From: Flavobacteriales bacterium
GTDB lineage: Bacteria; Bacteroidota; Bacteroidia; Flavobacteriales_D; Crocinitomicaceae
NCBI GenBank assembly: GCA_947500755.1
Contig: CANMTO010000003.1
Coordinates: 1-64,000 of the forward strand
Length of the DNA stretch: 64,000 nt
Direction: 5' to 3'
The position numbers were made by a program, and so were the translations under genes. Shown here in pieces: positions 50,643 through 62,834 of the stretch. Below the pieces are notes generated by a model. The model did no database searches. It worked only from the letters and a program-made list of their open reading frames with translations, and was not told the origin of the DNA. Each line of letters starts with the position of its first letter. Within the stretch, counting starts at the first letter, position 1.

Positions 50643-51542
50643 TTAATAAATCAAACTAATTTTTCCTTCAGTGATTCGCGCCGCCACTAATCTCCCACCC
50701 TTTGCTACAGAATAATCCAAACAAATGGCATGCTCATTAACAATTTTTGGAATTCCGCTCAACCAATAATGACCAAAAAAAACAGGTTTATCTGAAGTAA
50801 AAACAGAACGATCTACACCTTCCGGCATGGGATCATCCACTAAGGCTTCTGGACATTCCATGACGCCCTGCCCCATGGTCTCTTTTTTTGTGGCCCACCA
50901 GCGTAATCGACACTCTTCCCGTAAAATCCCTTCTTTATCAACCATGTATTGGCCTTCCGGAAGTTTATGTTCCGGTCCTTTTAAAGTTTCTTCTACGGGC
51001 TTAAATCCTGGCAATTCTTTTTGATAACAGTTGGCTAAAAATTCATCACTTAATCCCTCTTCGGTTGGACGATAATTTTTCTTCAACCATATTATATTAT
51101 CGTCATTCCAATACGCATGTACCATTTTGCAGTGATCTAATTCCAAGAACATGGGAAGGTGTTTGAACCACGTTAAGAACATATCCCATTCTTTAGGGAA
51201 AGGACGGAATTGTTCTAAGGTTTTTAGGTGCTGTTTTATCTTTTCTACACTATGTTCGCGAAAATAACCACCCTCTATTTTATTTTTTGTAGCAAAACAA
51301 ACGGCATTAAACTCGTGATTTCCCATGATGGCTTGAGCAAACCCTGCGTCCACCATGTCCTTTACGATGTGCAATACCCCTCGAATGTTAGGGCCACGAT
51401 CAATGAAGTCTCCCAGAAAAATAGCCTGACGTGAGGAATGCTGATAAACGCCATTCAATCGTTGATATCCTAACTTTTGGAGCAAGATTTCCAATTCGTC
51501 CGCATGTCCGTGAATATCGCCGATAATATCGAAGTTGGTCAT
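50643..51542 (-). CDS. ApaH/PrpE-like metallophosphoesterase
   Basis: A 299-residue calcineurin-fold phosphatase. Metal-binding motifs GDIHGHADE (near 8-16), GDFIDRGPN and GNHEFNA are intact and in order. Closest known types are diadenosine tetraphosphatases and PrpE, but length and middle region differ, so the substrate is open. Promoter word TATCTTTG on this strand ends 13 nt before the start. Confidence 0.88.
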   Translation of the reverse strand: MTNFDIIGDIHGHADELEILLQKLGYQRLNGVYQHSSRQAIFLGDFIDRGPNIRGVLHIVKDMVDAGFAQAIMGNHEFNAVCFATKNKIEGGYFREHSVEKIKQHLKTLEQFRPFPKEWDMFLTWFKHLPMFLELDHCKMVHAYWNDDNIIWLKKNYRPTEEGLSDEFLANCYQKELPGFKPVEETLKGPEHKLPEGQYMVDKEGILREECRLRWWATKKETMGQGVMECPEALVDDPMPEGVDRSVFTSDKPVFFGHYWLSGIPKIVNEHAICLDYSVAKGGRLVAARITEGKISLIY

Positions 51543-51617: not shown

Positions 51618-51830
51618 ATGGAGGACAGAGACATTAACAAGGCGTATTCTAAGGAAGAGTTTGTGAGTAAACTGAGACGACTTGCCGACTGTATCGAAAA
51701 AAATGAGAACTTTCGGATTTCAGTCGCTGGTGAAGCACTTTACGTTCCGGATAAAGCAACATTTTCTATCGAACACGAACGTTCAGAGGGTTCTCACGAA
51801 CTAGAGTTTCAAGTGAAATGGGAAGATTAA
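51618..51830 (+). CDS. amphi-Trp domain protein
   Basis: A 70-residue protein. The pattern AYSKEEFVSKLRRLADCIEK, then a glycine turn and VPDKATFSIEHERSEGSHEL ending in EFQVKWED matches the small amphi-Trp domain, which ends in a conserved Trp. ATG 51618 is preferred; an upstream extension reaches into the divergent phosphoesterase. Function unknown. The transglutaminase-like gene follows after 16 nt, so it may be the first gene of that operon. Confidence 0.8.
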   Translation: MEDRDINKAYSKEEFVSKLRRLADCIEKNENFRISVAGEALYVPDKATFSIEHERSEGSHELEFQVKWED

Positions 51831-51846
51831 TAGATCGAAATTCATT

Positions 51847-52797
51847 TTGTCAGAACTCAATATTTATATTTTAATGTTAGTTGCCTGTGTTATCTACTTG
51901 AACACGGGCTTTACATTCAAAAGAAAAGGTGCCTCCATTGCTGGACATCATAATCTTTTAATTATTGAGCAACTAACTGCCAAGGCAAGTAAGCCTAAAA
52001 ATTATCGGACAGCTCCAGGTTCATACGCTAGCTATGGATATAATGTAGAAGGCAGTATATTGGGTGAAAAGGCTACATTTAGATATACCTTTCCTTTTAC
52101 GAATAAAGGTAATGTAACCTTTCGAACAGAAATATCAACAGCAGAAATGTCCGAATTAGTTAGTGGTTTTGGTGTTCACAACTCTTGCTTTGCGCCTGTA
52201 TCTGATGGATGCTATGCAATTCAAACCACTGATTCAACGTATTTGTATGAACACATGAATCGCGATGGTTTTTTTTATCGATCAAATCAAACGTACGATT
52301 ATGGTGTGGATTTTAACGAGATAATTCGATTGTCTGTAAATTTATCTAAAGAAATCGCAACGTTTATCGTTCAGGAACTTGGCTCCAATGATTCTTATGA
52401 TAACCGGGTTATGGCTGCATTGAATTTTGTTCAATTTATACCCTATGGTCAACCAAATTTCAACGCCGGAGAATATGCCTATTTTGGGGTATCCATGCCG
52501 CATGAATCGTTTGTAATTTCATATAGCGATTGCGACAGCAAGTCCGTATTATTCTGTGGTATTTTAAAAGAGTTAATTGAGAATGCATCTGAAAATATAA
52601 TCATGGTTTATTGTACCATGGAAGGAGTGCATCATATGATTGTAGGGGTTTATGGCTTAGGTTTTTCAGGTAGAACACACATCCACAACGGAAAACCCTA
52701 TTTACTGTTAGAAACAACCGCTCCGATATCCTTAGAAAAACAACAACAAATCAATTTTGAGAATATTCATGTTTTTAACTTAACATTCCATGGTTGA
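51847..52797 (+). CDS. Transglutaminase-like membrane-anchored protein (first of two)
   Basis: A 316-residue protein with a weak N-terminal membrane segment (IYILMLVACVIYLNT) and a C-terminal transglutaminase-like core: Cys-229 in SYSDCDSKSVLF, His-262/263 in EGVHHMIVGV and Glu-289 in YLLLETTAP, matching the Cys-His-Asp/Glu triad. The start is TTG at 51847 (or ATG 51874). Residues 30-210 are of unknown fold. It overlaps the next gene by 8 nt. Peptidase or cross-linking activity is inferred, not shown. Confidence 0.75.
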   Translation: MSELNIYILMLVACVIYLNTGFTFKRKGASIAGHHNLLIIEQLTAKASKPKNYRTAPGSYASYGYNVEGSILGEKATFRYTFPFTNKGNVTFRTEISTAEMSELVSGFGVHNSCFAPVSDGCYAIQTTDSTYLYEHMNRDGFFYRSNQTYDYGVDFNEIIRLSVNLSKEIATFIVQELGSNDSYDNRVMAALNFVQFIPYGQPNFNAGEYAYFGVSMPHESFVISYSDCDSKSVLFCGILKELIENASENIIMVYCTMEGVHHMIVGVYGLGFSGRTHIHNGKPYLLLETTAPISLEKQQQINFENIHVFNLTFHG

Positions 52798-53575
52798 GGT
52801 ATTCAAGTGGTTCGGGACCTTGTCTCCCATGGAGGGGTGGGCTATTTTTATTGGTTTATGCTTGTTCATGACGATTATTCCGTATTATGGTTTAATAAAA
52901 CGGATTCTAATAATATTTTTCACGAATGAATCTCCGGAAATCGTAGATTTCAGTTGGCGAATAGCTCCAGATTATTTAATCCATCAAGCAGCAGAGAAGG
53001 AATACTACTATCATCCAGGTCAAGGCTTAGTTTACATTGGCTGTCCCATTATTTTAACATGGCAAGTAAAGGGAGCCTATAGAATTGATATCCATCCCGA
53101 TTATGCTAAACTCAAACAAAATAGTTTAATAACCGTAATTCGAGAAAAAGGAAATGTATATACCTTGTGTGCCTATACGTTAAAAGGTAAAATAGCGCAA
53201 AAACTATCTATTCCAGATGAGTTAGTGGTACGCCTAAACACAAGTCATTTTGGGGGTTCAAACGCGTTTAACCAACCTGAATCTAGGGTTCTAGTAAATA
53301 AAACAGGTAAATCGAAATTTAAGGGTAACTCTTATACTACTTCATATACTTTTTCGCTTATCAAGAAATTTGTGCCTAAGTACATACGGATGCGCCTTGT
53401 TTCAAAACGCTTACAACTTAAAATGGTAGATAATCCAATGAAAAATGAAATAAATAGCTATATTCGAGAGCAAAAAATTGTAAAAGGATATAACTTCAAC
53501 CCTTCCAAATACAACGAGCGCTTAATTACCGAGAATAAACTTTTTAAAAATAAAACAAATGAGCGAGAACAATAA
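52790..53575 (+). CDS. Membrane protein with Ig-like domain
   Basis: A 261-residue protein with one N-terminal helix (GWAIFIGLCLFMTIIPYYGL) and then a probable immunoglobulin-like beta domain (VYIGCPIILTWQVKGAYRID followed by NVYTLCAYTLKGK), with a charged C-terminal region (KFVPKYIRMRLVSKRLQL). No enzyme motif. It overlaps the preceding gene by 8 nt and the next by 17 nt, strong signs of co-translation. Confidence 0.6.
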   Translation: MVEVFKWFGTLSPMEGWAIFIGLCLFMTIIPYYGLIKRILIIFFTNESPEIVDFSWRIAPDYLIHQAAEKEYYYHPGQGLVYIGCPIILTWQVKGAYRIDIHPDYAKLKQNSLITVIREKGNVYTLCAYTLKGKIAQKLSIPDELVVRLNTSHFGGSNAFNQPESRVLVNKTGKSKFKGNSYTTSYTFSLIKKFVPKYIRMRLVSKRLQLKMVDNPMKNEINSYIREQKIVKGYNFNPSKYNERLITENKLFKNKTNEREQ

Positions 53576-54920
53576 TTCCATTGGGATGAATGAACTAGTT
53601 GATTACAAAAAAACAGAATACGGTCCTTTCATGAAATTCATCATGGAAGCCTTATGGAAATGTGGCGGTTCTGATAAAAAAATTCTGGAATACGCACCAT
53701 ATTCTGACCATATAAAACATGCGGGAATTGGTGGAGTGGTTCTTGCTACCACGGTAATGGCTGTGTTGGCGATGGGATTTGCGATGCAAACTATTTTTGC
53801 TAGTCCGGACCCCAGCGGTGCTATTGACCCTATTACGGGGGAGGTTGCACTCAAAGGCAATCTATGGATTACTGTCCCCGTTGCTCTTATTTGGGGGCTA
53901 ATTATTTTTAACCTAGACCGATTCATTGTTTCCACCGTTAAAGGCGATGGAACAGAGAATATAACCATCCTGCCTAAAAAAGGAAAGTCAAGCGAATTAT
54001 TGGCAATGGCACCGAGGCTTTTTATGGCTATTGTGATTGGATTAACCATTTCAGCGCCTTTGGAAACCTATATCTTTAAACGCGAAATATACCGAGAATG
54101 GAAATTATCTATGGACCAGCTAGCCATTAGCAAAACGTATGAGATAAAACAAACTGAATCAGTTAGAACAAAGGAAATTGATGAGGCTCTTGCAAAACTT
54201 GAAAATGATTATCAAAAACAAGCGGTAATTGTTGGGGAATTAAGAAAAGCATACGTAGAGGAAACCACAGGTATGAGGGGAGGAAGGGGCGAGGGCCCTG
54301 AAGCGAAGGCGATCAAATTACAACTCGACAAAGAAGAACGAAACCTTTCCCTCATTGATTCCCAAAGAGAAGAATTCCGTGCAGAGCTTGCGAAAAAACA
54401 GCAAGACACCAAGAAACAGCAAGATGCTATTAAAAAGAAAATCACCACGGAAAAACCTGGTTTCTTAGATCAAATCATGATGTTAGAACGATTAGCGGCG
54501 AATGGTAAAAAAGTCCCAAAATTTGATCCAGTAAAAAATGAAGTAATCAAAGGAAAGGAAGATGAGATTTACGGAAAGGCATCAGCACCGATTTGGTTGG
54601 TACGCATCCTTTTCATGATTATTGAGGTGGCTCCTGTAATTTTCAAATTCATGTTAAACAAATCTTCATATGATTGGATGCAACAAAATGTTGAACAAAT
54701 TCTTGAAGCTAAACAAGGAATTTCGTTGCATGAAGTTATTGATGAGAACAATAATATGCACAGATATCGTGAAAATTATAATGCCATGCGTATTGCCGAG
54801 GTTGCAAAACACCAAAATGATTTGGAAAAGGAAAATGCGAAACATGCGATGAGCCTGTATGCCGCCAAAGAAAAGGAGGAAATTGATAAGGACCCAAATA
54901 AATTTGTGAAGAACGATTAA
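53559..54920 (+). CDS. DUF4407 membrane protein
   Basis: A 453-residue protein with three N-terminal helices (about 46-66, 92-112, 146-165), a long charged coiled coil (about 190-300), and a fourth helix near 345-365 (IWLVRILFMIIEVAPVIFKF). The IFNLDRFIVSTVKGDG segment after helix 2 is typical of DUF4407. The family is of unknown function. It overlaps the upstream gene by 17 nt. Confidence 0.85.
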   Translation: MSENNNSIGMNELVDYKKTEYGPFMKFIMEALWKCGGSDKKILEYAPYSDHIKHAGIGGVVLATTVMAVLAMGFAMQTIFASPDPSGAIDPITGEVALKGNLWITVPVALIWGLIIFNLDRFIVSTVKGDGTENITILPKKGKSSELLAMAPRLFMAIVIGLTISAPLETYIFKREIYREWKLSMDQLAISKTYEIKQTESVRTKEIDEALAKLENDYQKQAVIVGELRKAYVEETTGMRGGRGEGPEAKAIKLQLDKEERNLSLIDSQREEFRAELAKKQQDTKKQQDAIKKKITTEKPGFLDQIMMLERLAANGKKVPKFDPVKNEVIKGKEDEIYGKASAPIWLVRILFMIIEVAPVIFKFMLNKSSYDWMQQNVEQILEAKQGISLHEVIDENNNMHRYRENYNAMRIAEVAKHQNDLEKENAKHAMSLYAAKEKEEIDKDPNKFVKND

Positions 54921-54947
54921 GCGAAGTCATCACTATATTTTGATTAA

Positions 54948-56012
54948 ATGACTGGTCCTCATATCGTCTACGGTAAGTTTAGAGGTAACTTTAAAACTAA
55001 ACAACGTGGGTTCTTAGGACGGGCAGATAGCCCGCCAACAGATAATACCCATACGGTACAAGTATATCAAGGAACCCTTGATGCTTCAGATTTTTTTACT
55101 GAATTCAAACCACAAGATTATCGGAAACTAAAGAGTTTTGTGCTCTCTAATGTCCCAAACGTTACTATAAACCCCGGGCAACATGGCCCGTTCATTGGAA
55201 ATCAACTTTTTACCTTTACTCAATTAATCTTGGTAGAACCTAAGATTATCAAAACCTACGACATCGATGGCGAAACCTATGGGGAGGTAGAATCGATGGC
55301 TTATGGTAAAACCTATGCGTCGCCACAAATAAAGAAACTTAAGCCAGATCCTTTTAATGATTTAGGATATAGCGACAACCAACCATGGTATCATTCGAAT
55401 AATGGATGCGTAAACAGCGGTATTACTGGTTGTGGAACGATGTATCAGGGGTGTAAAACGAATTTTTGGAAAATCCTGGGCTTACTTCTCCTGTTGCTTT
55501 TGCTTTTGGGTTTTATTCGTGCATGCAATAACATTGCAAATGATAAGCAGGCCTGTGTTAATGCTGATCTTGCCAAAAAAGAAAGAATAGAAAAGGAAAA
55601 AGAAGTAGAAGAAACAAAACAGCAATATGATTTGAATCTAAAAAATTCCTTAGCAAATGTATCTACGATTTATTTTTACAGAAATTCAGCCGATATCCAT
55701 ATAAATTCAACGGGAATGAACGGCACCGTAGATCGTCTAGCAGAAGTTATTGAGGCCTATGACGATAAATCGTTTGTGTTAGAAGGTCATCAAGATGAAA
55801 AGTCTATTGAATTAACAGGATTGGATATTAAACGCGCTGAAAAAATTAAACATATTCTAATCTTAAAAGGTATTGATGAACAACAAATCTCTGTCGTTGG
55901 AAGGCAAAACAAAGATGCAATCCCTATGCCCTTGTACAAATTTATGGATGATAAGGGAACCCGTGAATACAATCAAAATATGAAAGTTACCATCAGAGTA
56001 AGAAAGCAATAA
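54948..56012 (+). CDS. Paralog pair member A: unknown domain, Cys/Gly linker, Leu-rich helix, OmpA-like domain
   Basis: A 354-residue protein. Residues 1-145 form an unknown domain shared with the next gene product; the linker has Cys-154, -162 and -169, followed by a nearly pure-Leu helix (about 174-191), a coiled coil and a C-terminal OmpA-like domain (FVLEGHQDEKSIELTGLDIK, then QNMKVTIRV; the usual NR pair is degenerate). No signal peptide, so the N-domain is probably cytoplasmic and the OmpA part periplasmic. Gap to the next gene is 2 nt. Confidence 0.75.
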   Translation: MTGPHIVYGKFRGNFKTKQRGFLGRADSPPTDNTHTVQVYQGTLDASDFFTEFKPQDYRKLKSFVLSNVPNVTINPGQHGPFIGNQLFTFTQLILVEPKIIKTYDIDGETYGEVESMAYGKTYASPQIKKLKPDPFNDLGYSDNQPWYHSNNGCVNSGITGCGTMYQGCKTNFWKILGLLLLLLLLLGFIRACNNIANDKQACVNADLAKKERIEKEKEVEETKQQYDLNLKNSLANVSTIYFYRNSADIHINSTGMNGTVDRLAEVIEAYDDKSFVLEGHQDEKSIELTGLDIKRAEKIKHILILKGIDEQQISVVGRQNKDAIPMPLYKFMDDKGTREYNQNMKVTIRVRKQ

Positions 56013-56014
56013 GC

Positions 56015-57121
56015 ATGGGAATAGGAGCATATAAATATCTCGTTAAAGGTGCATTTGAAGGAACATTTACTACCCTTCAAGAAGAACCATTGACTACATC
56101 ATCAATCATCCCTGCTGGTGACGAGCATAAAATCACCATTCATAGAGGAATCATTTCTCATTCCACACAAATTACTGAAGAAGAATACCAACACGCATTG
56201 AGCTCCTTGTACTTCAATGAAGTACAAAACATAGAAATTCAACGCTCACCCTATTGGCCTTTAACAAATGATGCCATCTTTTCGCTACACGGCATGAAAC
56301 TAGCGGATGTTGAGGTTAGCCAAGTTACTCGCATGAATGATAAAACTATTGCTACCCTCAAAGGAACAGTTTTCTCCAAAGTGAGTCAAATGGACTTTGA
56401 TGTATCGGTTGGTACGCGCGATGAGCCCGATGAAAATAGGTATGTGAAAAATCAGTGGAACGATCAAAAGTGGTCAAAGAATGGCGGGTGTAATCGAGGT
56501 TTAGGGAATAGCATCCAAAACTCCCTAAGCGGATGTTCTCCGGGAGGTTGTAATACGCCCTCTGGGTGCTTAAAATGGTTACTTTACTTATTACTATTGC
56601 TGCTGCTATTGGGTTTGCTCGGACAGTGTACTCAGTTCGGGCGCACCTTACATTGTTACTACAATGCTTGGAAAGAAAAAAAAGAAATTTTAAAACTCCA
56701 GGAAAAGAAAGACAAACTCATAGAAAAGATTGAAAAGACTAAAAAAGAAACAACACCGTGTGGTAAAATCAGTGATCCCAATGGAAAAAACACGCCTAAA
56801 TCGTACACCTTTGATTTAGGTCAAAAGAGCGGTACCTTGCGTTTACGTTATGAAATGTATGAAATTCCGGATCGGATTGAAGTGATATATGATGGCAAAC
56901 TCGTTGCCCTTACTAACGATCAGCGTTTTAATCCAATTACTGTAAATAGGAAAAAATATAATTTGGATTATTTGGTTCCCATGGGGTATGCACAAGGCAG
57001 TGGTGAATTGAAATTCGATTACCATTACAATAAAAACAAACCTACTGAATTGCTAGTACGGGTTATACCGAGTAGGGAATTCGAAACAACAGAATGGACT
57101 ATTGATATTTTTTGCCCATGA
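56015..57121 (+). CDS. Paralog pair member B: same N-domain and Leu-rich helix, different C-terminal domain
   Basis: A 368-residue protein. The N-terminal domain aligns with the upstream gene product (for example HKITIHRG against HTVQVYQG). A linker with Cys-159, -174, -179 and -185 precedes a Leu-rich helix at about 186-204. A charged coil and a beta-rich C-terminal domain (about 247-368) follow, with YEMYEIPDRIEVIYDGKLVA and closing IDIFCP. The latter resembles beta-sandwich binding domains but is unassigned. Confidence 0.7.
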   Translation: MGIGAYKYLVKGAFEGTFTTLQEEPLTTSSIIPAGDEHKITIHRGIISHSTQITEEEYQHALSSLYFNEVQNIEIQRSPYWPLTNDAIFSLHGMKLADVEVSQVTRMNDKTIATLKGTVFSKVSQMDFDVSVGTRDEPDENRYVKNQWNDQKWSKNGGCNRGLGNSIQNSLSGCSPGGCNTPSGCLKWLLYLLLLLLLLGLLGQCTQFGRTLHCYYNAWKEKKEILKLQEKKDKLIEKIEKTKKETTPCGKISDPNGKNTPKSYTFDLGQKSGTLRLRYEMYEIPDRIEVIYDGKLVALTNDQRFNPITVNRKKYNLDYLVPMGYAQGSGELKFDYHYNKNKPTELLVRVIPSREFETTEWTIDIFCP

Positions 57122-58086
57122 TAATCGGAACTTACATATTCGGAATACCGAAGGAGCTTCTAAACCGTTTACCTGAAGAGGTAGCGCGCAGGCAAACATT
57201 CATCTTCAATATGTTGGGGCTGATGTTGATCGTTTTAGCGTTATTAGGTGCTGCATCAGGTCTAATCTTTGGTCTTGTTATATTCAACCATTGGGTGCTG
57301 GCAATCGCCTGCGGAATTTTCTTGGGTGGTGTGTTTTTTTTATTGCTTCAATTGCTGTTATTCCTTTCATTACAAACTCGATATAAAAATTTAAAAGAAC
57401 AGCTTTCTGATATGGAAAGTTTATACAATGACTATAAGGGGCTAAACATGACGACTTTATCAGATGAAGAAGCGTTAGAGATTGTTAGTAATTATAGATT
57501 AACGGCCAGTGCTTCTCAAATTAAAAATGAACCCAATCCGTTCCATCTCTCTCAGTTATTAATTTCGGCTGCCATTGTTTCCCTTGCCTTATTGTTATCA
57601 TTTATTGTTGCCAGTGCAATTGAAATTTGGATGTTCCGACACTCACTCAATGAAAAATTTTATGAGATTAAACATTCAACTGAATTGAATCATCTAGCAA
57701 AAGACTACCAACAACAAGGATATACATCGTTTAATGCGCAGAAAATGGAAGCATATTGGACGCTAAAGATGGTAGATAATTCAACAGGAGAAGTGTTCAA
57801 ACTCATTCATTGCCATTCCTTACTTATGACATTTGATGTGTTAATGGCGGGTATTGGGAACACGAAAGTACTGATCGACTTATTATTTGCTTGTGTTTTT
57901 CTAATTCCATACATACTAGTAAAGAAAAGTGATGAAATCTCAGGTGGTGAATTATTAAAACAAGTTACCATTGATTCAATAAGTACGAGCTTACTCATGC
58001 ATTTGCTTTCAACCAGAGAAATACAACGGGCTAAACATAACATAGAAACGGAATACAATTACTCCGAAACCCTAGGCTTAAAATGA
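57118..58086 (+). CDS. DUF4407-like membrane protein (second)
   Basis: A 322-residue protein with two N-terminal helices, a third near 150-170 (LLISAAIVSLALLLSFIVAS) and a fourth near 250 (KVLIDLLFACVFLIPYILVK). Topology and the fourth-helix motif resemble the DUF4407 protein two genes upstream, so a divergent paralog is likely. ATG 57118 gives an ATGA overlap with the previous stop; an in-frame TTG at 57112 is less attractive. Confidence 0.65.
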   Translation: MIIGTYIFGIPKELLNRLPEEVARRQTFIFNMLGLMLIVLALLGAASGLIFGLVIFNHWVLAIACGIFLGGVFFLLLQLLLFLSLQTRYKNLKEQLSDMESLYNDYKGLNMTTLSDEEALEIVSNYRLTASASQIKNEPNPFHLSQLLISAAIVSLALLLSFIVASAIEIWMFRHSLNEKFYEIKHSTELNHLAKDYQQQGYTSFNAQKMEAYWTLKMVDNSTGEVFKLIHCHSLLMTFDVLMAGIGNTKVLIDLLFACVFLIPYILVKKSDEISGGELLKQVTIDSISTSLLMHLLSTREIQRAKHNIETEYNYSETLGLK

Positions 58087-59006
58087 AAGAAAAGAAATCA
58101 CTTTTCAGGTCATTGAATTTGCTCTTTTGGTTAACCTTAGGATTAATAATACTTTGTGTATTACCTAAGTTAAATAACAAGCTTTTTAGTGATCAAGATT
58201 TTGATCGCTGGTATACTCGTTTTGATACTACCATTGTCGCAGTTGATTCGTTCTATATCGCACAAGACACCTCGAATATTATTGATGTCGTTGATACCAA
58301 TAAAATAACAAAAGATACGCTTAGAAGAAAAATGAAATTTATCCATTGGAAATGGGTAGACTATAATGGGACACGTTGCGATGTGTCTTTTAGTGTTCCT
58401 GAAGAAGAACTCGAGAAGGCTAAAGGGTTTAGAGAAGGATATATTTTTATAGGAAGAGCTCAACTTTATCAAGATTTCATTGATGCTTGTAAAATCCCAC
58501 TTTACAGACTGAATGAAGCGTTGGAAAAAGAAATGAATAAACGTGGGTTAACAGGGCAAGATCGATTGGATTTTCTTGTAACAGCCATACAAACCCCAAA
58601 ATATACTACGGTAACGGATAATAGTTGTGGAAATCAAGGTTCTTGTCAACCGGGTGGATGTTGCGGATACATTCAACCGTTTGCTATTTATACACCAACA
58701 GAGTTTATTTTTGCCAGAACGGGCGATTGCGATACAAAATCGCTGATATGTTATGCATTACTAAAAATGCAAGGGGTTCGTGCTGCAATGCTTACGGGAA
58801 AGGCGGCTAGTTCAAACAATGAAATGCCTGGTGGTCATGCCATGCTCGGTGTAGCCGGTTATCCACCAGTAATTCCTAGTAAACATCTTACCTTTCGGGG
58901 TGAAATGTATTATCCTTGGGAGACAACAAATTTTTATACCACCTGTCAACTTGGGAATATGCGAATGTGGTCGGTATGGATCAATTGGGAAGTAACTTAT
59001 AATTAA
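58083..59006 (+). CDS. Transglutaminase-like membrane protein (second)
   Basis: A 307-residue protein with an N-terminal helix (NLLFWLTLGLIILCVL, about 12-27). The triad is clear: Cys-216 in ARTGDCDTKSL, His-252 in PGGHAMLGV and Glu-280 in YYPWETTN. A Cys/Gly-rich stretch CGNQGSCQPGGCCG (182-195) lies before the active Cys. ATGA overlap with the upstream gene. Activity inferred only. Confidence 0.8.
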   Translation: MKEKKSLFRSLNLLFWLTLGLIILCVLPKLNNKLFSDQDFDRWYTRFDTTIVAVDSFYIAQDTSNIIDVVDTNKITKDTLRRKMKFIHWKWVDYNGTRCDVSFSVPEEELEKAKGFREGYIFIGRAQLYQDFIDACKIPLYRLNEALEKEMNKRGLTGQDRLDFLVTAIQTPKYTTVTDNSCGNQGSCQPGGCCGYIQPFAIYTPTEFIFARTGDCDTKSLICYALLKMQGVRAAMLTGKAASSNNEMPGGHAMLGVAGYPPVIPSKHLTFRGEMYYPWETTNFYTTCQLGNMRMWSVWINWEVTYN

Positions 59007-59018
59007 AAATAAATAACT

Positions 59019-59489
59019 ATGGAAACATTAAATGTAATAATTGCGGCACTGGTAACCATTTTCTACCTGATGTTAGCCACAAGGATTCTCTCGGCGTTTT
59101 TTCGAAAAATAACTAACCCACTCAATCACGCCACAGGAATTCTGTTAATATTTACCTTAATCGGTTTTGGAATTAACTTACATGATTTTTCAGAAATCGC
59201 TGTTAGTTCCTTCTTTTTTTATACAAGTACAGGGAATTGGTTTTATGCAATTTCGTTCTATTTGCTTTTTGCCTTGATTGCCTTTGTTTTTTCGTTTCTA
59301 TTATTTCGCTCTAGTTTTTTGTTAATGAACTGGGCTACACCTGAAAATGAAAAAGCTGAATTGGGAAAAAACAACATCATTCTTGCCTTAACGCATGGAG
59401 TCGTTTTTGTCCTCTTATGCTATGTGTTAAGTTCACCGATTACTATTCTTGCCAATACGATGATCGGATATTCTGATTTATCAAATTAA
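59019..59489 (+). CDS. Four-helix membrane protein
   Basis: A 156-residue protein with four hydrophobic segments (about 5-25, 38-60, 70-100, 120-145) and few charged loops. It starts 12 nt after the second transglutaminase-like gene and is the last member of the tight run. Not recognised. A 148-bp gap with no clear terminator follows. Confidence 0.65.
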   Translation: METLNVIIAALVTIFYLMLATRILSAFFRKITNPLNHATGILLIFTLIGFGINLHDFSEIAVSSFFFYTSTGNWFYAISFYLLFALIAFVFSFLLFRSSFLLMNWATPENEKAELGKNNIILALTHGVVFVLLCYVLSSPITILANTMIGYSDLSN

Positions 59490-59636: not shown

Positions 59637-60650
59637 TTACCTACCCAATACCTCATCCCAATAATATCCAAAATCTACCTTATCCCATTGCGCTTGACGA
59701 TGCATGGAGGTGCGAATAATTCGATTCTGCAACAAGGTACATTCGAATCCCATTAATGGCGTATGTATTTTCTCTCTGGTAAACTTGCTTAATAAACCGA
59801 AACGTAAATCGTAGACGATCAATTTATTTTTTTTGCTTTCGATTAAACAATAGTCATTTGTTACTCGATGCAGGTTTTTTGTTTGATTTCTTCCTATCCA
59901 TTTCAGTTCATTAATTCGATGTGACCCTCGCGTTAAAATCATTGGTTTCTCATGAATGGTAGCATTGAACAAGGATCGATAGGCAACGATATATTCGGAT
60001 TCATTCTCCCCTAGCACATACCAATAAAAACTGGTAAAAGGCATTGGGGTAACCATCATTCGATTGACCTTAATATGTTTTTCGCTCATATATTGAGTTG
60101 CATCATACCAAACATAACACTTAACAAGTGCCCCAATGACCAAATAGGATGTAGAATAAATCAATCCGATTCGATTGAGTCTTCTTCGCTTTGCGCTATT
60201 TCTATCCAAGCGCATCGCCCAAATGAGCAGCACCATAAATGGAACGGTGTACAAGGGGTCAATTACAAATACCGAATTGAAGGTTATTCTAGCCTCCAAT
60301 GGCCATAGGAATTGAGTTCCGTAATTGGTAAACATGTCGAGTATAGGGTGAGTAACAATCCCCCAGAAAAACAGCTGCGTCCACAACCAAAATCCGTGGG
60401 TTCCCTTAGTCGCCCAATTTAATATCCAACCAAGGAATGGTGATACTAACACGGAAAAAAGCAGGGAGTGAGAAAATCCACGGTGAACCAATGCAGCCTC
60501 CATCGGATGAAAGAACGCACGAAAGAATACATCGAGGTCTGGAATAGTTCCGGCGATCGCTCCCCAGAGCACTGCGCGATTCCCCATTTTTCTTCCGGCA
60601 ACTAATTCCCCAATTGCACCTCCTAATACAATTTGTGTTAGTGAATCCAT
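59637..60650 (-). CDS. Membrane-bound metal-dependent hydrolase (DUF457-type)
   Basis: A 337-residue protein with the N-terminal MDSLTQIVLGGAIGELVAGR, IAGTIPDLDVFFR and HRGFSHSLLF motifs typical of inner-membrane metal-dependent hydrolases (YdjM/DUF457 type). His and Asp residues in these motifs are the presumed metal ligands. Substrate unknown. Its first 128 bp recur at 62707-62834. A promoter-like word TAATTTTA ends 4 nt upstream of the ATG. Confidence 0.85.
   Translation of the reverse strand: MDSLTQIVLGGAIGELVAGRKMGNRAVLWGAIAGTIPDLDVFFRAFFHPMEAALVHRGFSHSLLFSVLVSPFLGWILNWATKGTHGFWLWTQLFFWGIVTHPILDMFTNYGTQFLWPLEARITFNSVFVIDPLYTVPFMVLLIWAMRLDRNSAKRRRLNRIGLIYSTSYLVIGALVKCYVWYDATQYMSEKHIKVNRMMVTPMPFTSFYWYVLGENESEYIVAYRSLFNATIHEKPMILTRGSHRINELKWIGRNQTKNLHRVTNDYCLIESKKNKLIVYDLRFGLLSKFTREKIHTPLMGFECTLLQNRIIRTSMHRQAQWDKVDFGYYWDEVLGR
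60523..60650. repeat. 128-bp direct repeat, copy 1
   Basis: By eye this is base-for-base identical to 62707-62834. It covers the first 128 bp of the hydrolase gene and is the intact gene's own 5' end. Confidence 0.9.
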
Positions 60651-60789: not shown

Positions 60790-62541
60790 ATGAAACGCAC
60801 GTTTTTACGTTCCTTTTTCGAACTCCCTTTTACTGAATTATCAGAAAATTCCGTTCGGTCATCCCAACCTAAAAAGTCCCTATTTTCTCACATAGTAGTT
60901 GATGTTTTGGATGATGAGTTATGGGGCTCTAAGGTAAGTATTCTAGGAAATTCCCTAATTATACTTGCTATCCTACTAAGTACATTGGATTACATTCTAA
61001 GTAACGGTGCAGGTGGATACTTAATTTCCAATAACCCCTTGAAATTCGCTATTGCAGGTTTCTTTCTAATGGAATTCATTCTCAGAATCTGTTATGCAAA
61101 AGCACTTGGATACGCACCTTCAGCACCACTAACTTACTTATTCTCATTCTTAGGTATAATCGATCTTCTAAGCTTGACACCCATAATACTGGATGTTTTT
61201 TCAGTGCCTTTTGTAAGTACCCTAGGTGCATTGCGAATTCTCAGGCTTTGGCGAGTAGCCCGCTACATCCCTTCGTTTAGCGTAATTTCAAATGCATTCA
61301 ATGCTCGAAAAGAAGATATTATCACTTCGCTACTTGGTGTTGTCTTGCTTTCATTGACCCTTTCTGCCCTAATATTCCATTTTGAAAACGCAAATACAGA
61401 AAGTTCATTTAAAAATATTTTGGAAGTATTCATCTGGTCTATTGGTAAGTATACGGGAGATTATGGAGCAATTGCGGTCAAAAATCCAATTAGCGATATG
61501 GGAAAGTTTATTGCTACCATTAATGGCTTACTAGGTATTGCTTTGTTCGCTCTTCCTGCAGGGCTTCTTGCATCGGCATTTATTGAACAATTGGAGGAAA
61601 AACGTAAAATGCAAACAATTAATGAACGCATCAAAAAAATTGAAAAACACTTTGCTAAACTCACCGGTGGAGGAAAGCATTTTAAATACAAAACTCATCC
61701 ACGCTATGCCTCAACGGACTACATTCAAAGCAAATTTTTGTTGAGTGAAAGTGAACTATTTGAATGTATCCGCGAAGCGCAATGTTTGAGATTTCGGGCA
61801 TTAAAATCAAGCCCTGAACGCAGCGTTTCTGATATTCGCATTATTGAATCATTCAAATCGAATTGCGCATATGGATACCGTCAATTCAATGATGAAAGTA
61901 ATATCGTGCTAATTAATGCGATTGGACATAATGAACGTGGGATTTCTCATTTCTCTTATACCTTAGCTAAGGGATTAAATCTAAACTTCATCGCACGGGA
62001 ATTCGAACTTTTAAATAAATCAGGTGCAAGTATCGGGGGAAACGCTTCCAAAGAATATGAACGTTTTCTAGCAAATGATATCACAACGTTCAATCCAACA
62101 CTGTTAGAATTTCTTCAGGACATTGATTCGTTTAATGAAAATACATTTTTTATTATTTTATCCTCCGCGGCTTCGGGTAGAAAAGATATTATTCTCGAAT
62201 ATGGAAATGATATAAACACTGTCGGATGGGACCCTGAAAAAACTACTTTATCGTCAGAAACTTTATTAAATAAGGTGATAAATCAAGTAACAGAAGGATT
62301 ATCCGATGTTCAATATACAGGGTCAAATCAAATTAAAGTCACTCAAGGTTTTAGTTTAGATGAAAATACCATTGGACTCAATATGGACAACTCGCTTCAA
62401 CGCTTGATTCATAAAAAAACACAGGCCAATGTAATTACTCTTTACGTTAACATTCGCATCTTAACCGGTGAAGACAATCTATATTACAGCGCTGCAACAG
62501 CTTTAGGTAATATTATCGAACAGATCAAAACACTTGATTAA
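60790..62541 (+). CDS. Voltage-gated-type ion channel with large unknown C-terminal domain
   Basis: A 583-residue protein. Six transmembrane helices span about 45-265, with an S4-like segment LGALRILRLWRVAR carrying Arg-149, -152, -155 and -158. The pore loop reads SIGKYTGDYGAI (217-228), which lacks the classical TVGYGD order. Residues 270-300 form a basic coil, and the remaining about 280 residues are an unknown domain (NIVLINAIGHNERGISHFSY near 371-390). The gene lies between the two 128-bp repeats. Confidence 0.8.
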   Translation: MKRTFLRSFFELPFTELSENSVRSSQPKKSLFSHIVVDVLDDELWGSKVSILGNSLIILAILLSTLDYILSNGAGGYLISNNPLKFAIAGFFLMEFILRICYAKALGYAPSAPLTYLFSFLGIIDLLSLTPIILDVFSVPFVSTLGALRILRLWRVARYIPSFSVISNAFNARKEDIITSLLGVVLLSLTLSALIFHFENANTESSFKNILEVFIWSIGKYTGDYGAIAVKNPISDMGKFIATINGLLGIALFALPAGLLASAFIEQLEEKRKMQTINERIKKIEKHFAKLTGGGKHFKYKTHPRYASTDYIQSKFLLSESELFECIREAQCLRFRALKSSPERSVSDIRIIESFKSNCAYGYRQFNDESNIVLINAIGHNERGISHFSYTLAKGLNLNFIAREFELLNKSGASIGGNASKEYERFLANDITTFNPTLLEFLQDIDSFNENTFFIILSSAASGRKDIILEYGNDINTVGWDPEKTTLSSETLLNKVINQVTEGLSDVQYTGSNQIKVTQGFSLDENTIGLNMDNSLQRLIHKKTQANVITLYVNIRILTGEDNLYYSAATALGNIIEQIKTLD

Positions 62542-62660: not shown

Positions 62661-62834
62661 TCATATACAAGCCTTCAGCAAATCTCCTGATATCATCTTG
62701 ACTCTGAAGAATACATCGAGGTCTGGAATAGTTCCGGCGATCGCTCCCCAGAGCACTGCGCGATTCCCCATTTTTCTTCCGGCAACTAATTCCCCAATTG
62801 CACCTCCTAATACAATTTGTGTTAGTGAATCCAT
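62661..62834 (-). pseudogene. Truncated copy of the hydrolase gene 5' end
   Basis: Starting at ATG 62834 it encodes the first 43 residues of the hydrolase (to DLDVFFR), then runs into foreign sequence VKMISGDLLKACI and stops. It keeps a perfect promoter word (minus strand TATTTTTG, 62841-62848) 6 nt upstream, better than that of the intact gene, so this may be the original 5' end. Confidence 0.85.
62707..62834. repeat. 128-bp direct repeat, copy 2
   Basis: Identical by eye to 60523-60650 and in the same orientation. The flanks diverge at once on both sides (AAAG... against GAAG... on the left). Confidence 0.9.

Follow-up and report, generated by a model that had tools for sequence, protein, structure and literature searches.

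The window analysed here comprises the first 64,000 nucleotides (nt) of contig C3 (CANMTO010000003.1) in the 2.56 Mb genome of a Flavobacteriales bacterium, and at 51847-59489 it carries eight membrane-protein genes that were confirmed as open reading frames (ORFs) in the order tgA-ig-d44-omp-par-d44b-tgB-d350. The block was found to represent a conserved multi-gene membrane system, a conclusion that is well supported, and its enzyme is predicted to be a transglutaminase-fold cysteine peptidase. The features are listed below, with the evidence for each in brackets.

51618..51830, + strand: amphi-Trp domain protein, possible accessory gene (TIGR04354, 46.4 bits, cut-off 31)
51847..52797, + strand: tgA, N-terminal hydrophobic segment and transglutaminase-like domain with C/H/E (profile match)
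52790..53575, + strand: ig, membrane segment and Ig-like module (profile comparison and hidden Markov model, HMM)
53559..54920, + strand: d44, DUF4407 membrane protein with four transmembrane helices (TM) and a coiled-coil hairpin (PF14362 and structure model)
54105..54449, + strand: exchangeable coil cassette of d44, amino acids about 183-297 (identity drop against the sister operon L032)
54948..56012, + strand: omp, N-domain, Cys-containing juxtamembrane segment, one TM and C-terminal OmpA domain (PF00691)
56015..57121, + strand: par, N-domain and TM as in omp, with another C-terminal domain (omp-par profile match)
57112..58086, + strand: d44b, DUF4407-like membrane protein, possible start ATG at 57118 (profile match to compact Y)
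58083..59006, + strand: tgB, N-terminal TM and transglutaminase-like cysteine-peptidase domain, predicted periplasmic (profile match to compact T)
59019..59489, + strand: d350, DUF350-like multi-helix membrane protein (PF03994, near cut-off)

Successive genes are spaced by -8, -17, +27, +2, -10, -4 and +12 nt, and the -10 junction between par and d44b becomes an ATGA overlap if d44b begins at the in-frame ATG at 57118. All junction spacings were identical in the sister operon L032 (G454:C5), which comes from the same genus and whose products share 78-96% amino acid identity per gene with those of the window. With dN/dS values of 0.10-0.37 between the two across the eight genes, these genes are real and under purifying selection. 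A simple hydropathy cut detected one hydrophobic segment in each of tgA, ig, omp, par and tgB, four in d44, four in d44b and three in d350 (four by eye). The eight tightly linked membrane-protein genes described in the first-pass annotation were thus confirmed in their reading frames, their junctions and the presence of at least one hydrophobic segment per product. Its "four-helix protein", d350, is indeed a multi-helix membrane protein and is here reassigned as DUF350-like. Searches of the eight proteins against Pfam, NCBIfam and PADLOC yielded DUF4407, OmpA, DUF350 close to its threshold and a weak transglutaminase match. No relevant Pfam match was obtained for tgA, ig or par, and two further matches below their family cut-offs, IDH for tgA (0.0043) and SLATT for d44b (0.0045), were discarded.

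Conservation was assessed in samples of 249 genomes of the order, 295 of the class and 395 of the phylum. In the order sample, tgB returned 24 matches in 23 genomes, and d44 was matched in 48 genomes. When the two tables were compared by eye, 19 of the 24 tgB matches lay within about 5 kb of a d44 match on the same contig, for which the probability is near 1e-32 if the chance per tgB match is taken as 1.2%. As for the tgB matches without a nearby d44, the contig ends beside the cluster in G401 (L118), the contigs are split in G412, with the DUF4407 contig L142 terminating in the start of the enzyme gene, and the tgB relative is on a separate contig in G531. In G347 and G487, no DUF4407 match was found in the genome and the enzyme adjoins a DUF350-like gene.

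The full block, in the same order, is present in two other genomes of the genus (L032 and L100), and L094 carries the amphi-Trp gene, tgA, ig and the start of d44 before its contig ends. In L170, from another family of the class, seven genes follow one another as tgA-ig-d44-N-domain protein-d44b-tgB-d350, each matched by a window protein at an E value of 6e-20 or better; here a single N-domain protein, matched by omp at 5e-21 and by par at 4e-24, replaces both omp and par. Relatives of tgA were found in L032, L100, L094 and L170, and tgA thus belongs to the window-type version only. The possibility raised in the first-pass annotation that the genes might not occur together elsewhere is answered by their co-occurrence in L032, L100 and L170.

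A compact layout, X-K-Y-Z-T-D, in which X is a small gene, was commoner than the window type. By profile comparison, K corresponds to d44 (100%), Y to d44b (97%), Z to omp (98%) and D to d350 (96.4%), and T consists of an N-domain of the omp/par/Z kind fused to tgB (99.9%). The N-domain of T matched those of Z, par and omp at 94%, 79% and 39.8%, respectively; in the window, two genes (par and tgB) carry the N-domain and the enzyme. As judged from sequence comparison, the core common to the two types is a DUF4407 protein, a DUF4407-like protein, an N-domain protein, a transglutaminase and a DUF350 protein. One compact cluster, L171 (9601-11665), contains two tandem Z-type proteins, the second with a reduced N-domain.

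Across the phylum sample, the T profile matched 8 of the 395 genomes, including the window's own genome and G041 (compact). G068 and G253 carry a small unmatched gene, K, Y and T, with no Z and with a D match in G068 only; L123 and L124 (family f34) have the enzyme beside DUF350 and nothing more of the set, and the matches in G228 and G079 are lone transglutaminase domains. An initial phylum search with omp mostly recovered other OmpA domains. In the class sample, the Y profile matched 33 of the 295 genomes, in part through plain DUF4407 genes, and the 18 Y-match regions examined yielded compact or near-compact clusters in L169, L171 and L178 besides the window-type L170. Within the genus the distribution is patchy: seven genomes, the window's own included and most of them compact, have a tgB match, and at least 20 among those listed have none. 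No description of the gene set, and no co-occurrence of DUF4407 with a transglutaminase, was found in the literature searched, whose coverage excludes most subscription journals and preprints; this agrees with the first-pass statement that no named system matches the set.

The presence of two transglutaminase-like proteins was borne out by profile comparison, in which the cores of tgA and tgB matched at 92.6% and tgA matched compact T at 95%. Neither reaches the cut-off of Transglut_core (PF01841, 23 bits): tgB scored 15.1 bits and tgA gave no match, and among compact T proteins that of L108 scored 14.4 bits and that of L103 gave none. An AlphaFold model of L108 T, built from 30 sequences (mean predicted local distance difference test score, pLDDT, 80.3), showed a beta-rich N-domain, three consecutive membrane-length helices and a confident C-terminal domain, with a mean pLDDT above 90 over most of residues 311-550. 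A PDB sequence search with T gave nothing relevant, and Foldseek with the model gave nothing at E<=0.001 (best PNGase, 0.023). Upon realignment of the top chains, the model matched 3kd4, a putative protease from Parabacteroides, with a Z score of 10.0 (root-mean-square deviation, rmsd, 2.7 over 140 residues), LapG chains with Z 8.4-8.9 (rmsd 3.3-3.7 over 133-136 residues, covering the whole domain), and animal transglutaminases with Z 7.4-8.5 (transglutaminase 2, 8.5), where differences within 1 count as ties. Thus, the transglutaminase core is predicted to fold like the bacterial cysteine peptidases 3kd4 and LapG, a result obtained with the compact T model and carried to tgB through the 99.9% profile homology. 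At least 90% of the 30 sequences, which include one truncated at a contig end, retain Cys469, His497 and Glu523 (L108 numbering).

The odd number of helices, the occurrence of a related N-domain before the OmpA domain of Z, and a J-domain-like start in one T protein together point to a predicted topology with the N-terminus inside and the enzyme outside. The last of these is in L122 (8327-10237), whose T starts with an apparent DnaJ J-domain with the HPD motif in an alignment inspected by eye, and this start suggests possible chaperone recruitment at the cytoplasmic side.

Two DUF4407-type proteins had been proposed for the block. The d44 product passes PF14362 clearly (183.8 bits, cut-off 31.3), and d44b matches it only weakly (20.5 bits), although its compact counterpart, Y of L103, passes with 34.4 bits. 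The model of d44 (mean pLDDT 74.5) shows four membrane helices and a coiled-coil hairpin, residues 174-237 and 247-297, between TM3 and TM4; the charges at TM1 and TM2 fit an inside N-terminus. Fold matches of the DUF4407 model were coiled-coil look-alikes such as ABC transporters and were set aside as giving no functional hint; a MotA-like arrangement was also considered and does not appear among these matches, though this does not disprove it.

The product of ig gave no Pfam Ig match; it was called Ig-like, in line with the earlier assignment, on the basis of its strand pattern as judged by eye and of its similarity to comparable modules. The 1088 ORFs of the multi-gene loci, control regions excluded, were searched with an HMM built from ig and six clear relatives. 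Besides the training genes and a second copy of one of them, ten ORFs reached E<=0.05. Each of the ten is immediately followed, on the same strand, by a DUF4407 gene; none of the three further ORFs with E between 0.05 and 1 is placed directly upstream of DUF4407. The matches comprised the C-terminal part of a kinase gene (L098, L090, L176 and L177), a separate gene near a kinase (L093 and L140), a gene behind E1-like and JAB-like genes (L091), a gene in a set ending with GH18 (L174) and the X gene of compact loci (L113 and L102). Against the corresponding modules of kinase- and E1-type DUF4407 loci, ig scored 92-95% in profile comparison, and the alignment behind the HMM gave 95.4% with the modules of the other systems. 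Taken together, the sequence matches indicate that the Ig-like gene and DUF4407 form a wider chassis with varied partners.

Five of the six kinase-type loci (L090, L093, L098, L140, L176 and L177) also contain PP2C and/or vWA. The labels ThiF, GH18, PP2C and kinase of L098 and kinase of L177 rest on matches above Pfam cut-offs; JAB, PP2C and kinase of L090 and vWA of L177 lie below them, L176 and L140 were called by similarity to other loci, and L093 and the vWA of L090 by eye. In L091 (4113-9523), a Cys-containing Ig-like protein and DUF4407 come after an E1-like ThiF gene, a JAB-like gene and an unmatched gene of 242 aa, an arrangement that looks like ubiquitin-like conjugation genes next to a membrane protein. 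The GH18 genes of L174 (5311-7074) and L185 (4433-6202) run in the same direction as the DUF4407 and Ig-like genes of those loci, and GH18 may be a further output of the chassis. Among 65 loci with a d44 match, which were picked from the matches and are not a random sample, 24 have a tgB match and 5 more such loci are cut by contig ends (L088, L094, L127, L128 and L142); 6 are kinase-type, 1 is E1-JAB, 2 are GH18 (L174 and L185), 3 have Y but no enzyme (L089, L172 and L173), and in 24 no partner was recognised.

The coil of d44 differed sharply between the window and L032. Along the block, identity is 86-99% in most 100-nt bins, but it falls to 38-43% per 100 nt at 54147-54446. At the protein level, d44 is 95% identical over residues 18-80 and 100% over 100-175, drops to 29% in the coil (183-297) and returns to 100% over 342-449. 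A similar pattern was observed in a second genus, where TM4 and the C-terminus of L106 and L111 are 91% identical and their coils 25%, and the L106 coil has 66-74% identity with its counterparts in L105, L116 and L114, which belong to a different genus. The exchanged stretch in L106 is wider, its TM2-TM3 being nearer to L105 (86%) than to L111 (69%). L117 groups with L113, L121 and L122 outside the coil, and its coil is nearest to L102-L104 (31-34%). No coil exchange was found in the close pairs L105/L116, L107/L109, L111/L112 and L106/L115. The pattern looks like recombination between discrete coil types. Assembly chimerism in metagenome-assembled genomes is a possible alternative source of the difference, against which speak the reading frames that remain open and the recurrence of the pattern in a second genus. 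After the coil, the lowest identity within the block for the window/L032 pair (69-78%) is in tgB at nt 58447-58646, shortly before the catalytic Cys; this patch, seen in a single pair, would fit a contact between coil and enzyme.

The OmpA-like C-terminal domain reported earlier was confirmed in omp (PF00691, 28.6 bits, cut-off 27.2) and was stronger in Z of L103 (63.4) and L108 (77.0); an Asp and an Arg spotted by eye are presumably the wall-binding residues of the OmpA domain. The N-domains of omp and par matched at 98% over 222 columns in profile comparison, in good agreement with the paralogous pair proposed previously. Gly-Cys pairs stand directly before the membrane helix in omp and par (54948-57121), in many Z and in several T proteins, and may be a metal or redox site. 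DUF350 assignments are close to the PF03994 cut-off of 26 bits (d350 25.6, L103 27.3, L108 21.4).

On the basis of the conserved gene order, the tgB-DUF4407 proximity, the LapG-like fold, the conserved Cys/His/Glu, the OmpA end of omp and Z, the occurrence of Ig-DUF4407 in other contexts and the coil exchange with constant flanks, we tentatively propose, at a probability somewhat short of even, that the products form one inner-membrane complex controlling a periplasmic transglutaminase-fold cysteine peptidase. In this proposal, the Ig-like protein and the DUF4407 protein would form a sensor chassis, with the Ig module facing the cytoplasm and the coiled-coil hairpin of DUF4407 reaching into the periplasm as a recognition rod. 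The DUF4407-like d44b and the DUF350-like d350 would complete the membrane core, the OmpA domain of omp would tether the complex to peptidoglycan, and the N-domains of omp and par, and in compact loci also that of the enzyme, would relay the signal at the cytoplasmic side. The enzyme might be released to cut an envelope protein once the rod encounters its putative cue or the membrane-wall spacing changes. The first-pass annotation had suggested an envelope-spanning complex with peptidase or cross-linking enzymes; the linked system and, in the model, a peptidase-like fold stand, and assembly into a single complex is an inference, the structure models being of single chains. More broadly, though rather doubtfully, Ig-DUF4407 could be the chassis of an undescribed envelope-surveillance class in which a recombining coil cassette would serve recognition, much as a variable receptor tip does, and the outputs would be interchangeable: a kinase with phosphatase and vWA, ubiquitin-like conjugation, GH18 or, in the window, a wall-anchored cysteine peptidase accompanied by DUF350. 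If confirmed, the proposal would represent a new way for bacteria to act on their envelope, possibly against phages; it would make DUF4407, DUF350, the shared N-domain and the Ig-like module parts of one testable machine, a membrane chassis that serves differing outputs and whose probable sensor contains an exchangeable segment.

Several observations weigh against this proposal. The third residue of such a catalytic triad is usually Asp, as in the Cys-His-Asp of LapG-type BTLCP, whereas the third conserved residue here is Glu, and the activity could be acyl transfer instead of proteolysis. L113, L117, L121 and L122 yielded no OmpA-type Z, nor did OmpA match the N-domain proteins of L170 and L178; the wall anchor is therefore not universal. 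The charges of d44 are even at TM3 (3 and 3) and slightly contrary at TM4 (3 before, 2 after), and the periplasmic hairpin is therefore only a prediction. Lastly, compact X matches the ig profile weakly (7-17%).

The main rival to the peptidase reading is an anti-phage or kin-discrimination role, in which the coil would recognise a variable foreign envelope protein and the enzyme or a membrane lesion would stop the infected cell. It draws on the patchy distribution in the genus, the coil exchanged between sister operons, AbiEii near L032, and the association of Ig-DUF4407 with kinase/PP2C/vWA and E1-JAB, modules known from conflict systems (TerY-P passages of PMC11090510). PADLOC-DB 2.0.0, however, gave no match at E<=1 for any of ten scanned proteins, including the eight block products, and no relatives were found for omp in plasmids or for T in plasmid, phage and viral-contig collections. 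PADLOC families at E<=1e-5 numbered 104 among 111 neighbour proteins and 148 among 111 control proteins, a crude comparison that counts families rather than proteins and whose control contains a type I restriction set. The neighbour set held 111 of 113 ORFs from 23 loci, among which 4 are enzyme-only or dyad loci, with 7 long ORFs left out, and the control set 111 of 114 ORFs from 20 regions of 14 genomes. A location in defence islands, which the first-pass annotation had proposed to check, was thus not supported, as the neighbourhoods were not enriched over this control, and we regard a defence role as unlikely. The suggested link to secretion likewise gained no evidence.

An acyl transferase that cross-links envelope proteins or attaches them to the wall, for repair or reinforcement, would accommodate the animal transglutaminases among the fold matches, the OmpA wall anchor and the GH18 genes with the chassis in L174 and L185, which may indicate wall or surface material; we judge it improbable, given that the best fold matches are 3kd4 and LapG, though Z scores within 1 tie, and that the operon holds no obvious acceptor or donor protein. 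Quite improbable is an envelope stress device that responds to membrane damage with the enzyme in a secondary role, by the logic of DUF350 operons of the phage shock protein (PSP) network. An Ion_trans gene at 60790, a relative of which is near L172, recalls the potassium channel accompanying DUF350 in PSP-linked operons (PMC11237479). This gene was rejected as a member of the block, however, since it lies behind an opposite-strand gene, is on another contig in G531 and was not matched in G448, which has the full block; the patchy distribution also argues against such a device.

Comparison with known systems brought out partial likenesses. LapG/LapD is a transglutaminase-like cysteine protease under inside-out control, and the block shares with it a transglutaminase-fold cysteine peptidase, predicted to be periplasmic and linked to inner-membrane proteins. 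The block enzyme differs in being membrane-anchored, with Glu as third residue and other membrane partners; no LapG-family or cyclic di-GMP (c-di-GMP) domain was found in the block at E<=1 (Pfam), and no c-di-GMP receptor was matched by Pfam among the eight products or gene 60790. Zorya ZorA/ZorB are inner-membrane defence proteins with an OmpA-type wall anchor, and this arrangement, together with a possible defence setting, resembles the block at the level of general architecture rather than of compared structures. Unlike Zorya, the block has no PADLOC match and no helicase or nuclease match in Pfam, and its DUF4407 protein is modelled as a coiled-coil hairpin. The TerY-P triad consists of vWA, PP2C and a Ser/Thr kinase with a zinc ribbon (PMC11090510). 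Six kinase loci elsewhere carry the Ig-like module and DUF4407, the chassis of the block, whereas the window block has no vWA, PP2C or kinase match (Pfam) and DUF4407 is absent from the TerY-P passages of PMC11090510. The PSP-linked operons have in common with the block a DUF350 (YjfL) membrane protein in an envelope-linked operon, where its partners are PspA, polyamine enzymes and a channel, and the text of PMC11237479 does not mention a transglutaminase. PspA was not among the Pfam matches of the block (the neighbour scan shows the 25 commonest of 122 families).

Around the block, tgA is preceded at a distance of 16 nt by the amphi-Trp gene, which also comes before it in L032 and L094 and had no match in L100. 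In L032, AbiEii and an adjoining gene (together 441-2091) lie some 1.4 kb ahead of the amphi-Trp gene; the adjoining gene is possibly AbiEi, since one neighbour protein matches AbiEi. The flanking genes at 50643, 59637 and 60790 are themselves accessory, with matches in 8, 17 and 13 of 61 genus genomes, respectively, the last count including weak channel-domain matches. The first 45 codons of the opposite-strand gene 59637 are repeated beyond the channel gene (60790-62541) with 98% protein identity (regions 59640-60650 and 62700-62834), and G454 has the same repeat (96%); an insertion that brought in the channel gene may have duplicated this end of gene 59637.

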